A stretch of 64,000 nucleotides of DNA from Phytophthora quininea (lineage: Eukaryota > Oomycota > Peronosporomycetes > Peronosporales > Peronosporaceae), in contig JAAVTG010000248.1 of assembly GCA_011947345.1 (NCBI GenBank), positions 248,001 through 312,000 of the forward strand, written 5' to 3'. Position numbers and translations under genes: made by a program. This document shows, one piece after another, positions 9,001-14,802 of this stretch; position 1 is the first letter of the stretch; each line of letters begins with the position of its first letter. The notes under the pieces are model-generated. The model was given only the letters and a program-made list of their open reading frames with translations, was not told the DNA's origin and did not search any database.

Positions 9001-11492
9001 CCCTGGTGAAAGAAAACATGAGCATACACAAGAGACGCAGCAAAACACAATGACAGTGATGTACCTCCAAACTGTAGCTCCCAAGCTGACAAAGAGCTGG
9101 AGTCTGCGTTGAATCGATGCAGCTATAACCAGCTGGACAGACATGACACGTAGCCCCGCCTGCAACGCTGTTGTATAAACCCTGTGCACAGGCAACAGGT
9201 TGAGCCGACGAATTGCTGCTACATTGGTACCCACGAGGACAAACAGTGCATGAAGTTGAGGCTTGTGCACTGTAGTATCCAGTGCCACACAATTGCGGCG
9301 CACGGTCAGCGGTAGAGCATGAATATCCGCTGGGGCACGCAACGCACGAAGTGCTATTTCCAAGAGAATACGTGCCTGGTGGGCATACAACCGGGCCGAT
9401 TGTTGGATCAGAGCAAGAAAACCCGGCAAGGCAGGTAGCGCACGGTGTTGCTCCAGAATTCATCGAGAAAGTGCCGGCCGTACAGGGAACAGGGTTGATT
9501 GATCCTTTGGGGCAGTAATACCCTTGCGGGCATAGTGAACACGCTGACTGGGACGCTTGATTGTTGTACGTTCCAGCTGGGCAATCGTGACATTGCTGTT
9601 CACTTACACCAGAAAATGAACCAGCGGGACAAGCCTGGTACACGGCATTCGCAGCGCTGCAAAATGAACCAGCAGGACACACAAGGCAGGCGTTTAGTCC
9701 TGAAATATGGGCGTATGTTCCAGTTGAACACGCTACGCAAGCTGTAGCGTTCTGTGCAAATTCAGTGCTGGACGAAGTACCCTGCGGACACGGCACCGGT
9801 GCCAAGCAAGATCCTGGACAGTAATATCCAAGCGGGCAACCAACGCATTGCGAGTTGCCTGTCGTTGCATTCACTAGAGGGAACCATCCAGCGCGACATG
9901 GTTCCACGCAGGCCTCCATCACGAGAGGTTCGTAGTACACTAGTACTTTATTCTGAGGGAACACTTCGTTGACTTTCCCGTTGTAATTAATATCCGATGA
10001 AATAATCTGATGCAGAATGCCGCTGGTTCCCCTTACTGATGATGTAACTACAGAGGCGAGGACGTTGACCAGTTTTGGGGTGTTCCACGAACTTGAGGTG
10101 AACACCACTTCAGCTGGATCAGTCAAAATGAAGGAAGCTTCGGGGCTCATGTGGATAGTTACATCGCTGATTGGCTGTGATAGAAGCACTATCTCGTAGC
10201 TGTCATTTCGGAGACTCTCAATTACCGCAAGAAATCGGTCCGAGATGTGAACGCCAGGAAATCATTTTCGCTAATGTGAACCTCCACCTCATCAATCGGC
10301 GAGAAGGTCCCGCTGTCGTCACCACTTAAAACCTGATGTGGGATGGTTACAATATTTTCCACGCTGGCATTACCACTCACGATGCTATCTTCCGACGCAG
10401 TTACAGTGACTTGTACAGCAGTGCTCCAATTCGCTGCAGTGAATATGGCCAACTGAGGAACCAGCGAAAGTTCTGCTCTGCTCTGAGAATCGCCAACGGA
10501 GAGGGTAATCGGCAATTCGCCGTAAGGTGGTGCATTCAGCACAATCGAGTACTGACCCCCAACAGCATCGCCTTCTTTCACGCTAAGGCTCGACTTGCTG
10601 ATCTGAGCTCGCGCTTTGGACAGAAAATTACTCGAAGAATCCACATATTCCTGGTCGATAATCTGGCTGAAAGAATCAATCGTCTGCAACAGCACCTGAG
10701 GACCCATCGACCCTTCCAGCAACGGGTGTACAATGCCATCCAGCCCCACCACAATCTCCTGCATCCCAACACTATCACTCGCCGACAAGCCAGCACGATG
10801 GATCTGGATCCGATTGTTCTTCGTCGACAGCTCAAAGTCGCCATCCAGCCCCACAACACTCAACACTGTCACACCTAACAACGAGTTGTACATGTACGGC
10901 AAATCCACAACTATAGCGCCATCTTTAGGCACAGAATCCCCGGCGTCATGTGAATTTCGAGCGTCGTGTTGCGTCCGCTCAACAAATTCCCAAACGTGAG
11001 CTGTGGCTTCCAAATTCCCCGGGGCGATCTCTATCGTCGAGAGCGACAGCGACCGCGCCGTTGTGTCGCTACCACTCGTCAGGTTCATCGTCCCCACTTC
11101 GAATCGCCCCGCGCGCGTTGGGTTCGACACTCCGGACAGCTTGAAAAGCAGACGTGTGCCAGCACTAACCACCGATCCATCGCCGCCACGCTGCACCGTC
11201 AGCGTGTGATCACTTAGACCGACACTCCAGCTTCCGTTTGCAGATGTCTGCAGCGCAGCAGTATCCACCGTCGCGTTCGCTGCCACCGCGAAGTGCTCGC
11301 CTAGCTGAATCGTCACCACTGCGTCGACGGGCAGCAGTGGGTTGTCCCCGTCGTCAGAGCGAGCAGCAGTCCTGTGCCTGCCGCCACCGTCGTGTTGCTC
11401 CACGTGACTGAGACTGCATCGTCAGCTGCCAACACAGCAGCAATCGTAGTCACAAGCACAAGCAGAGCCAGCTCACCAAACCAAGTCCGCAT
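1..11492 (-). CDS. Giant secreted GCC2/GCC3 cysteine-rich repeat protein (3' end beyond window)
   Basis: The reading starts at the ATG at 11492; a signal peptide follows (hydrophobic core LALLVLVTTIAAVLA). About 500 residues of non-cysteine, beta-rich Ser/Thr sequence come next (about 11400-9900). From about 9900 to 560 there is a long tandem array of GCC2/GCC3-like modules of about 45-50 residues with the core CPxGYYCPxG; about 60 modules are expected from the period (not counted one by one). Near the left edge (about 310-1) the protein changes to a non-repeat region containing DAGTYVFGNSLNAASQTI, then leaves the window. The role is unknown; a secreted or cell-surface structural or adhesive protein is inferred. 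The frame changes repeatedly by one base, for example near 11347 (run of C), 10214, 7165 and 545, with no splice sites there, so consensus errors are likely. Very confident in family, less in exact frame joins. Confidence 0.9.
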
Positions 11493-11645
11493 CTTGCCCC
11501 ATGAAGGGCCGTGAAGGGTCAGCCAAACAACCGAAAGATGCTATGAGTTTTTTTATCAAAACAATCGCTGATCGATTATTGGATAACTGTAAAAACAGGT
11601 GACCACGACTAACTAGCAACTGCTGTTGGGCGGTCTTCGCACTTT

Positions 11646-11654
11646 GCTCATTCG
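11646..11654 (+). promoter_or_regulatory. Candidate oomycete initiator (Inr) element upstream of the Fanzor gene
   Basis: The sequence gctcattcg matches the core of the oomycete initiator consensus (GCTCATTYY). It lies 45 bases upstream of the first long-ORF ATG at 11699, a plausible distance for a start site. It is a short motif, so chance occurrence is possible. Confidence 0.35.
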
Positions 11655-11698
11655 TCTGCTCAAGCCTTCAACTTTGAGTCCGACGAAGGAGCTGAGCC

Positions 11699-13409
11699 AT
11701 GCAGCGCGCCCAGACAGACCTTGTCCACCCAAGCGAGTGGTTTCGACAAGCTGTTGCAGACGCCCTGTGGATACCCGACAGAACTGAGGTCGTTCACAAA
11801 CCTCGCAGACGACGTATCCAAAAACTCCCCAGATCTCGACCAAGGAGACGGAAGAAGCGCAAACGCGAGAAGAGAGGCGTGTTCCCGAAGCGCGCAGCAA
11901 GGTTCGTCCGCGACCATGTTTCGCACCACATGAGAGCGGTCGAACCGCTGCTCGCCTCTTGGGTCGACGTGACCAACTTCGCCGACGAGGAACGCACTTC
12001 GCGTTGGAGAGAGATGCGTCGAAGCACGCCACAGTCTGCACAAGATGCTGTTATTGAGAACGACAACGAGGAGTCGGACGACGAAGAAGAGGAGACCGTC
12101 AACAGTGTGGTAAAGCTTCGACTGTTCCCGACTTCGGACCAGCGCGCTAAGTTGGACCAGATGTTCGCTGCCAACCGCGCGATATACAACAAGCTGGTGG
12201 CCCGCTCCCGCGAAGACCGACTCGGAATCGCGTCCGATGAAACGATGACGCGGACCGAACTCATGAAGAAGTACCGGCCGATCGCGATCCTGAAGAGCAT
12301 GTCCAAGTACTTCCGGAACAACAAGCGCGCGAGAGTCCGACACAAAAAGGTTCACGACGATATTCGAGACTCCGCGTTCCGTGATTTCAAAACGGCGGTG
12401 AAATCGCCGCTGGCGCTGTTCTTCGCCAAGAAGAGGCGGGACGAGAAAACCACGTACCCGGACATGAAGTTCAAGAGCAAGTTCTCGCCGTCCAACACAA
12501 TTGAGATCAGGAAACGCTCGGTGAATACTGTTGAGAAGCACGGCCAAGACTTTGTCCGGTTCCACACCAAGTTCTTCGGGATGAAGGCGGACGACGGCAT
12601 TGCTCTGCACGAACGACTCCATGCGCTGGAGAGATCTGTCCGTCTGCAACGTCGGACAGAGAGAGAGTACTACCTCATCGTGCCTCGCCTTCGAGAGTTC
12701 GACCCGTCCAAGAGCGAGAGAGTGTGCGCGATTGACCCTGGCGTGCGCAAGTTCACGACCGTGTACGACCCCGACGGGCGAACGTTCAGCGTGAAGTACG
12801 CGCGCTCCGTGTTGAAAAAGAAGTTCGAGGCCGTGGACGAGATGAAGTCCATGCTCGCCCAGATGACCAACGCGTGCAAGGCGAGACGCTCAACACCACA
12901 CGACCGAACGAAGACGAGCAGGTCAAGCGAGCATCGGTTTCGCTACCGGCTGCGTAGACGGATACGCTTCACGTCTCGAAAGGCGACGCGAGCCGTGAAC
13001 GACATGCACCAAAAGCTCTCGAGCTGGCTGGCGATGAACTACAAGCACAGTCCTTCCACACGTCGGAGATGGTGCGACGGTATTTCTTGAAGGCAACAGC
13101 AGACGCTACCCCGGAAACCTCCGCCACCGTCCAGAAGAGGAAGATTCGAAGCCCTACGGCGAGGGCTATGCTGGCGCAGGCTCACTATCGCTTCAAGATG
13201 CTCCTGAAGTACAAGTTGGAGCGCACGGGCGGACGGCTGGTCGAGTGCGAGGAGGAGTACACGTCGAAGACCTGCTCAGGCTGCGGAACGATAAAAAGCA
13301 ACCTCGGCGGCAGCGAGGACTTTCGGTGCGGCAGCTGTCTGGCAGTATACGACCGAGACGTGAACGCAGCGCGCAACATCTTCCACAAGAACATGGGGTT
13401 CTCTTGTAG
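11699..13409 (+). CDS. Fanzor (eukaryotic TnpB-like) RNA-guided nuclease, one frame break
   Basis: The basic N-terminal extension (about 11699-12090) is rich in Arg/Lys and ends in an acidic run. It is followed by a TnpB-like core beginning at VVKLRLFPTSDQRAKLDQMF. RuvC-I is seen in CAIDPGVRKFTTVYDPDG with its Asp (about 12727). RuvC-II lies around SFHTSEMVRR, where the usual TnpB Glu is not obvious. A CEEEYTSKTCSGCG block follows with an alternative acidic cluster, and a four-Cys zinc finger (CSGC...CGSC) leads into DRDVNAARN (RuvC-III Asp). This matches Fanzor proteins with a rearranged catalytic Glu. The frame breaks once near 13045-13060, between LSSWLAMNYK and SFHTSEMV. The original frame stays open into the next gene; a second one-base shift would give a TAG at 13407-13409, so the exact C-terminus is uncertain. 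It is probably a mobile-element passenger; terminal repeats were not identified. Confidence 0.85.
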
Positions 13410-13469
13410 AGCACCCTCATGCATTACCAGCGAAGCCTTCGTCGCGGAGTCCTGTCCAGCAGCGGTTTT

Positions 13470-13535
13470 ACTTCTGGTGGGCGCTACAGGCCCACGAGTG
13501 CCCAACCTGTCAACTTGTAGTAAAGTTGGCAATAC
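13470..13535 (+). ncRNA. Candidate Fanzor guide-RNA (fRNA/omega-RNA) scaffold
   Basis: Just after the probable Fanzor stop are two hairpins in a row. Stem GTGGGC at 13477-13482 pairs perfectly with 13490-13495 around a 7-base loop. CAACTT at 13511-13516 pairs with AAGTTG at 13523-13528 and extends to about 9 pairs with one G-T wobble. In TnpB and Fanzor loci the guide RNA is transcribed from the 3' end of the gene and is structured. The assignment is inference from position and folding only. Confidence 0.3.
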
Positions 13536-13615
13536 GAGGAAACTCCTCAGGCGAAGAACGGCGCTATCATTTCAATCCGTTTTGTGCATACAAACTCCCA
13601 GTCAAACAGTTGGTC

Positions 13616-14802
13616 ATGGCGGCAGGCAAGCGTCGACTCAGCGAGGACGGCTCGACGGCGCTCACACCCGCGGGGCAGACGCAGTTGGCCAAGCGCTCGC
13701 GCGTGACGGAGATCGTGGCCGTAGACCCGGCGGTGGTGGCGCCCAAGCGCCTCGGGGACCGCTCGTCGGGGCTGCAGGCGCCCACGATGCTGCTCTCGGG
13801 CCACAGCGCCGCCGTGTACTCGCTAAAGTTTAGTCCAAGTGGGCAACACCTGGCGTCGTCGTCGTTCGACCGGACAATTCGTGAGTTTTACTTGAGAATG
13901 ATGCATTGTCTTGTGGCTAACTGAGGCTTGCAGTGCTCTGGGATGTTTACGGCGAGTGCCGCAACTACAACGTGCTGAGTGGCCACAAGAACGCCGTGCT
14001 GGAAGTGCAGTGGACCTACGATAGTGCTCAATTGGTCTCTGCGTCGGCCGACAAGACGGTGGGGCTCTGGGACGCTGAGACGGGTCGCCGAGTCAAGAAA
14101 TTCGCAGGCCACACATCCGTGGTCAATAGCTGCTGTCCCGTGACGAGCGGCCCCACGCTCCTCGTCAGCGGCAGCGACGATTGTGCAACCAAGCTCTGGG
14201 ATGTGCGCTACAAGCGGTCGGCCAAGACGTTCGAAAACAGCTACCAGGTCACGGCCGTGTGCTTCTCGGCTGACAACTCGCACGTGATTGCTGGCGGGCT
14301 GGATGGAGACATCAAGGTGCGTGTTGAGGCTGGGGTTCAATCCTTTAGTGGTTTCGGACGCGGTCTCTGATGGACACTGTTGTGGTAGATGTGGGACCTG
14401 CGCAAGGACCAAGTGAGCGCGGTGCTGCGGGGCCACGCCGACATTGTGACGGGCGTTAGTTTGAGCCCCGACGGCAGCTACTTGCTGTCGAACGCCATGG
14501 ACTCGACGGTGCGCAAGTGGGACGTCCGGCCGTTCGTCAAGGGTGAGCGCCAGAAGATGACCTTTATGGGCGCCAAGCACAGCTTCGACCGCACGCTGAT
14601 CCGCTGCGGGTGGTCGTCCGACATGCGCTTCGTGACAAGCGGGTCGGCAGACCGTTACGTGTACGTTTGGGACGCCGAGACGGGCAACTTGCGGTACCAC
14701 CTGCCAGGACACAAGGGCAGTGTGAACGAGGCTACGTTTCACCCCACCGAGCCGATTGTGGGCTCGTGCAGTAGCGACAAGGAAATCTACTTGGGGAGCT
14801 GA
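13616..14802 (+). CDS. SNRNP40: U5 snRNP 40 kDa WD40-repeat protein, three exons
   Basis: A WD40 propeller protein of the spliceosomal U5 snRNP. Exons are 13616-13880, 13934-14316 and 14389-14802; introns of 53 and 72 bases have GT-AG ends and keep the frame (TI-LLWDV and GDIK-MWDL). The N-terminus is a short basic tail, then repeats begin at LLSGHSAAVYSLKFSPSG. Repeats follow with SASADKTVGLWD, SGSDDCATKLWD, GGLDGDIKMWDL, MDSTVRKWD and SGSADRYVYVWD, and the protein ends CSSDKEIYLGS. Order and ending match SNRNP40. No frame break is seen, unlike most neighbours. Its ATG lies only about 200 bases after the Fanzor coding end, so its promoter may overlap the element's 3' flank. Confidence 0.93.

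Follow-up and report, generated by a model that had tools for sequence, protein, structure and literature searches.

A Degraded Fanzor2 Transposon Upstream of a WD40 Gene and the Conserved 3′ Block of Its Family

Nuclease Gene and Catalytic Residues

The analyzed window, a stretch of 64,000 nucleotides, encodes a TnpB-family nuclease at positions 11699–13405. The coding sequence is spread over two reading frames, lies inside a transposon with definable ends and is followed by a predicted RNA scaffold, a predicted guide segment and the first exon of a putative SNRNP40 gene (Table 1). The first open piece gave a Pfam match to HTH_OrfB_IS605 (4.2e-07) and a match to OrfB_IS605 under the cut-off, and its final 14 codons, 3′ of a deletion, are out of frame. 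The second piece matched Cas12f1-like_TNB (1.3e-20). Both pieces matched the guided_TnpB model under the cut-off, as did the C-terminal piece with the IS607_TnpB model (4.4e-12). PADLOC returned mostly Cas12f/Cas12u models for the protein, together with one labelled Csx1; such an outcome is expected for this superfamily.

Table 1. Positions of the transposon, its coding pieces, catalytic residues, lesions and predicted RNA parts in the window.
Feature	Position	Strand	Remarks
Candidate TAM CCG at left insertion junction	11509..11511	+	CCG in 5/6 readable left ends
Interior of family-A Fanzor2 transposon, 2040 bp	11512..13551	+	ends common to copies with unrelated flanks; two sister empty sites
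First open piece	11699..13090	+	463 codons; basic N-terminus, HTH_OrfB part, RuvC-I
RuvC-I Asp in DPG (AIDPGV), codon	12734..12736	+	
10-bp deletion in RuvC-II strand	13040..13053	+	splits frame near 13046; found against L010, absent from the other 8 aligned copies
Second open piece, different frame	13069..13405	+	RuvC-II/TNB, Cys4 zinc finger, RuvC-III; from translation
Relocated RuvC glutamate (Ealt), codon	13252..13254	+	E-x6-C, separated from first zinc-finger Cys by six residues
Cys4 zinc finger	13273..13338	+	RD located 3′ of finger
RuvC-III Asp in YDRD, codon	13357..13359	+	
1-bp deletion abolishing the stop	13393..13410	+	near 13400; found against L010
Predicted omegaRNA scaffold	13414..13553	+	3′ of stop; SL1 about 13427–13445, SL2 about 13456–13480, SL3 13508–13531, right end 13543–13553
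Predicted guide segment	13554..13573	+	host sequence just past right end, upstream of WD40 gene; from TnpB/Fanzor architecture
First exon of downstream WD40 gene (putative SNRNP40)	13616..13879	+	WD40 8.6e-09; exon border by eye

A DPG motif combined with a relocated glutamate is the fingerprint of Fanzor proteins, and the definition of the relocated residue (Ealt) was taken from the same source (Yoon et al. 2023, PMC10711439). The search pattern quoted there places 120–160 residues between DPG and the glutamate; in P0003, the sister protein from the frame-open copy L010, the spacing is 173, and the pattern fits once this interval is widened. A spacing of 173 falls within the 125–275 residues that PMC3627910 gives between the Asp and the [TS][TS] block. 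The initial annotation had described a TnpB-like protein with RuvC and a Cys4 finger, with the acidic residues of RuvC-I and RuvC-III present and the glutamate moved as in Fanzor proteins; the domain matches and the residues read here agree with it on all these points.

The nearest solved structure to P0003 was the mimivirus TnpB-like protein L79 (PDB 9b0l, E 3.2e-17); among the 14 solved-structure chains listed at E ≤ 0.01, no chain was named Fanzor. In the alignment of L79 with the sister protein, DPG, the relocated Glu, Cys4 and RD were all seen, but L79 is viral and distant, and the alignment is good only across the C-terminal half. Fanzor2 proteins are compact, at about 500 residues, and L010 is open over 543 codons, without the N-terminal start. 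Based on DPG, the relocated Glu, Cys4 and RD, assignment of the locus to the Fanzor family, as originally called, is supported, and compactness and the match to L79 lean towards Fanzor2. The window copy is a Fanzor member by descent, not a working gene.

Copies, Ends and Empty Sites

When the complete assembly (87.2 Mb, 993 contigs) was searched at the DNA level, 31 matches were obtained; ten of them, the window copy included, span about 1.84 kb or more at 87–100% identity. Two of these ten, on contigs C366 and C517, look like one locus on two contigs. The family-A ends are imperfectly inverted, with TTGGAGGGTTAGCC at the left in most readable copies and TTGGGAGTTACC as the reverse complement of the right end. 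Left ends could be read in six copies (window, L010, L011, L012, L013 and L015; that of L013 is diverged and was assigned by eye), and eight copies have a readable right end. The dinucleotide CG at 11510–11511 is seen again at 13552–13553, and CG is found at 8/8 readable right ends and 6/6 readable left ends of family A. The left flank is CCG in five of the six readable copies and ACG in the sixth.

The joined flanks of six copies were searched for in the assembly, and empty sites were obtained for two, L011 (96% identity) and L015 (89%), with none for the other four. Both empty sites carry CCG at the junction. In L011, CGTTTGG flanks the element on either side and is single in the empty site; in L015, two of six bases differ in the right-hand copy of the repeat, and L010 has no duplication at its ends. 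The L011 empty site fits a CG core without duplication as well as a 6–7 bp duplication, and that of L015 fits imperfectly.

It should be noted that both flanks of L010 (C543) and L014 (C13) are common to the two copies (99% and 96%). In the tree of copies, the window copy and L010 form a group with support 100, and L014 is placed elsewhere despite its L010-like flanks. Gene conversion between copies, or a second insertion into one site, would account for this arrangement. The left ends of family B are ragged, and no clean boundary was obtained for them.

Mode of Insertion

These ends bear on what moved the element. The first possibility, to which we give somewhat under an even chance, is IS607-type insertion at a CG core without target duplication, by a serine recombinase that has since been lost or is absent from the assembly. 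According to PMC3627910, Fanzor2 elements are of IS607 type without TIR or TSD; the CG at every readable family-A end and the compatible L011 empty site are in line with this. What speaks against such insertion is that a six-frame search of the assembly, made without introns, gave no match to PF00239 (resolvase family; control matches in 10 of 14 genomes) and none to the IS607 transposase model NF033518 (control matches in 9 of 14 genomes), and that CG is not kept 3′ of AAGG in other families. The IS607 TnpB of ISXfa1 offers a comparison here: according to PMC10711439, it keeps a right-flank nucleotide in the scaffold and forms a pseudoknot between a stem-loop and the scaffold end, both of which we propose for the window family, but ISXfa1 has a TnpA, which was undetected in this genome.

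The second possibility, a tentative but serious one, is a cut-and-paste DNA transposon with a captured Fanzor2, comparable to the Fanzor2* group of Yoon et al. (2023); its inverted ends would be short and imperfect and its target duplication some 6–7 bp long. Fanzor2* proteins in non-IS607 transposons likewise occur without IS607 TnpA and with inverted ends; TIR and TSD are reported for them, whereas the window family has imperfect ends and an uncertain duplication (PMC10711439). The inverted ends and the CGTTTGG repeat of L011, single in its empty site, are as such a transposon would leave them, whereas the mismatched repeat of L015 and the lack of a duplication in L010 are not. Nor was a partner element with the same left end found: allowing up to three mismatches, the left-end motif occurs six times in the assembly, only in Fanzor copies.

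Conserved 3′ Block and Predicted Scaffold

The block just 3′ of the stop (13414–13458) is 87–91% identical in seven family-B loci. Over the stretch from 12935 on, with the scaffold block included, identity in family-B loci is 72–75%; the zinc-finger part of the protein just upstream of the block reaches 61–75% in its best pieces, and the remaining parts of the protein are mostly at 41–55%. Consensus folds computed separately for eight ends of family A and eight of family B gave a similar stem plan, comprising hairpin 1, hairpin 2 of differing sequence and hairpin 3 before the right end. The eight family-B ends represent fewer than eight insertions, because L021 and L023 have common flanks, as do L024 and L036.

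Right ends close in AAGG in 15 of the 16 family-A and family-B cases, the window copy having CAGG; they were located with patterns containing AAGG or AGG, and the place matches the point where copies diverge. In other families, AAGG was found at the right end of L035, L038, L082, L084, L085, L087 and L092 and AAGC at that of L088 and L090, and no right end of the AAGG/AAGC type was seen in L037, L083, L086 and L089. The AAGG could pair with the CCUU of the first hairpin loop as a pseudoknot, like the one that PMC10711439 describes for IS607 TnpB and predicts for Fanzor2. The proposed pseudoknot pairs show hardly any variation.

Among 19 distinct SL1 hairpin rows from five families, 86% of the cells pair, compared with at most 64% when the alignment is slid, and at one pair of the six (GC, CG, UA) both partners change. 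Of 500 shuffles, 8 reached the covariation score, 7 the share of paired cells and 496 the count of pairs with a change on both sides. Covariation therefore lends weak support to the SL1 hairpin. The window sequence at 13396–13573 folds with z −2.76, and 2 of 200 shuffles were as good, which bears out the structured 3′ segment of the initial annotation. Single-sequence folds of nine representatives gave z from +0.28 to −2.54 (−1.70 for the window piece), so that such folds are modest, of moderate stability. Within 11400–13700, Rfam gave no match up to E 1. The conserved 3′ block could also act in transposition as DNA.

A 19-nt scaffold core has 41 matches in the assembly at no more than one mismatch, 36 of them exact, compared with three for the reversed control. 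Read by eye, 31 of the 41 lie about 120 nt or less downstream of a same-strand match to the protein C-terminus, and ten do not. Five of these ten were read: L084 and L085 have a worn gene tail, L036 is a family-B end, L092 looks scaffold-like and L091 looks like chance. In L084 (C534:46180-46700) and L085 (C508:193080-193560), the nuclease gene is reduced to the worn tail, while the scaffold and the AAGG right end are kept. We considered these two loci as ORF-less mini-elements of 412 and 409 bp and rejected this, because by eye their upstream flanks are alike as well, which places the left end further out.

The strict initiator motif is TCAYTYY. It is absent from 11506–11720, and that stretch varies among copies, so the candidate initiator proposed earlier is weak.

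Frame Lesions and Decay of the Family

The initial annotation had placed the feature at 11646–13535 and had described it as a compact RNA-guided nuclease locus. No single reading frame spans this interval, 19 stops being found in the frame from 11646, and the element both starts earlier and ends later. Without its stop, the second frame continues beyond the element to 13833. The predicted RNA of the window copy is altered as well, in SL1 (a change common to L010), in SL2 and in the right-end AAGG. With the protein split and the RNA changed in this way, a working locus finds no support here, and the window copy is a pseudogene of Fanzor2.

In all nine copies examined, the coding sequence is damaged somewhere between the first Met and the stop. 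L010, 96% identical to the window copy, is open over its 543 codons from an internal position, but residues 1–45 lie in a different frame that contains a stop. Each of the other seven has frame-changing indels relative to L010, stops, or both. Among the nine copies, dN/dS ranges from 0.19 to 0.62 and is below 1 in all 36 pairs, the pair of window copy and L010 resting on just 7.5 synonymous and 12.5 non-synonymous changes. These values suggest selection on the protein before decay.

In the zinc-finger region, L011, L014, L015, L016 and L018 have a common 1-nt difference at an A5 run, after which the frame is open to the usual stop. A 1-nt difference was scored at this place in six of the nine copies, the sixth being L012, in which a larger deletion of its own lies there. 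Programmed frameshifting at the A5 run was considered and set aside. The window copy, L010 and L013 are without the difference, and the family-B copies L019, L025 and L027 break elsewhere; we therefore read it as decay with amplification of a broken copy, ribosomal frameshifting being less likely.

Assembly errors in an otherwise intact, active Fanzor2 are a very unlikely explanation of the frame breaks. The copies are readable over long stretches, with L010 as the best case, as errors would allow; against this stand two separate lesions in the window copy, one of them of 10 bp, together with the altered stem-loops SL1 and SL2 and the CAGG right end, and the other eight aligned copies also have frame breaks, stops or an out-of-frame start. 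Decay of the family is a better fit to lesions distributed in this manner than sequencing error is. That the locus is a bacterial or viral TnpB contaminant, or a viral insertion, and not a resident transposon, is hardly credible: its nearest solved relative, L79, is viral, but many diverged copies lie on many contigs of one 87-Mb assembly, the window copy stands beside a WD40 gene, and no relative was found in viral (IMG/VR) and prokaryote contigs with patterns derived from one sequence, which reach close relatives only.

Proposed Mechanism

Taking these results together, we consider it very probable that the Fanzor2 DNA transposon found in the window, inserted upstream of the WD40 gene, is a dead copy whose ancestors would have had an RNA-guided nuclease serving retention or homing. 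For the intact ancestors, we infer a cycle of transcription, RNA processing, guide use, TAM recognition, cleavage and homing. It would start with one transcript giving both the nuclease and the 3′ scaffold RNA, the latter running across the right end. Since the scaffold RNA would cross this end, the host sequence beside the insertion would serve as the guide; the 24-nt stretch starting at 13554 is unique in the genome when up to three mismatches are allowed. With its RNA, the nuclease would then cleave the unoccupied allele of the insertion site beside CCG, and the element would be restored or copied when the break is repaired from the occupied allele.

The CCG of the left flank is suggestive of the TAM of the window family. 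NlovFz2, a Fanzor2 for which DNA cleavage is shown, has the TAM 5′-CCG (Saito et al. 2023, PMC10432273), equal to the left flank in most of the readable copies; the likeness concerns the TAM reported there, and the same paper gives TAMs other than CCG for other Fanzors. The comparison is not an independent test, because CG is also the recurring dinucleotide of the junctions, and CCG may be an insertion preference rather than a TAM.

A further reading of the same loci is that of a Fanzor2 lineage without recombinase, whose scaffolds are served in trans: about 40 scaffold loci are present in one genome, some with a nuclease remnant; broken copies would have multiplied, and the CCG sites of insertion would at the same time be the TAM of the nuclease itself. 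RNA-guided homing at such sites, and not a transposase, could then be the main driver. We regard this as unlikely.

Relation to Described Fanzor2 Families and Further Observations

Fanzor2 itself is already known. In Table 1 of Bao and Jurka (2013, PMC3627910), P. sojae, P. capsici and P. ramorum are each credited with one Fanzor2 family, and Fanzor1 families are given alongside the Phytophthora Fanzor2. These Fanzor2 represent the same protein class, likened here by description only, and their hosts possibly belong to the same genus as the present one or to a near genus. The earlier suggestion that the locus may be undescribed thus probably holds for the window copy, and not for the kind of element, tabulated for three Phytophthora species in 2013. 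In the Fanzor/TnpB, Phytophthora and oomycete literature covered, which comprised few subscription papers and no supplements, no title or abstract describes the scaffold or the ends of the window family, the details of which may not be in print.

The window copy, as a relic, is of little importance in itself. The value lies in its family: a single genome offers related Fanzor2 families with right ends that can be read, empty sites and a scaffold block less changeable than the coding sequence next to it. On this basis one can test directly by what means Fanzor elements persist although no transposase is visible, and whether insertion motif and TAM are identical.

A second set of zinc-finger matches, at 37–41% identity, was seen at C508:168747, C687:396444, C171, C942, C162, C89, C934 and C206:104490, and is possibly Fanzor1. 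In family B, the 5′ part of L033, and by eye that of L032, contains a piece similar to the beginning of a protein kinase (for the L033 peptide, Pkinase E 0.00026, under the cut-off), and this piece is perhaps captured host sequence. When the flanks were read by eye, the window copy, L011 and L012 were each seen to lie near a potential host-gene start codon and thus in a likely promoter.
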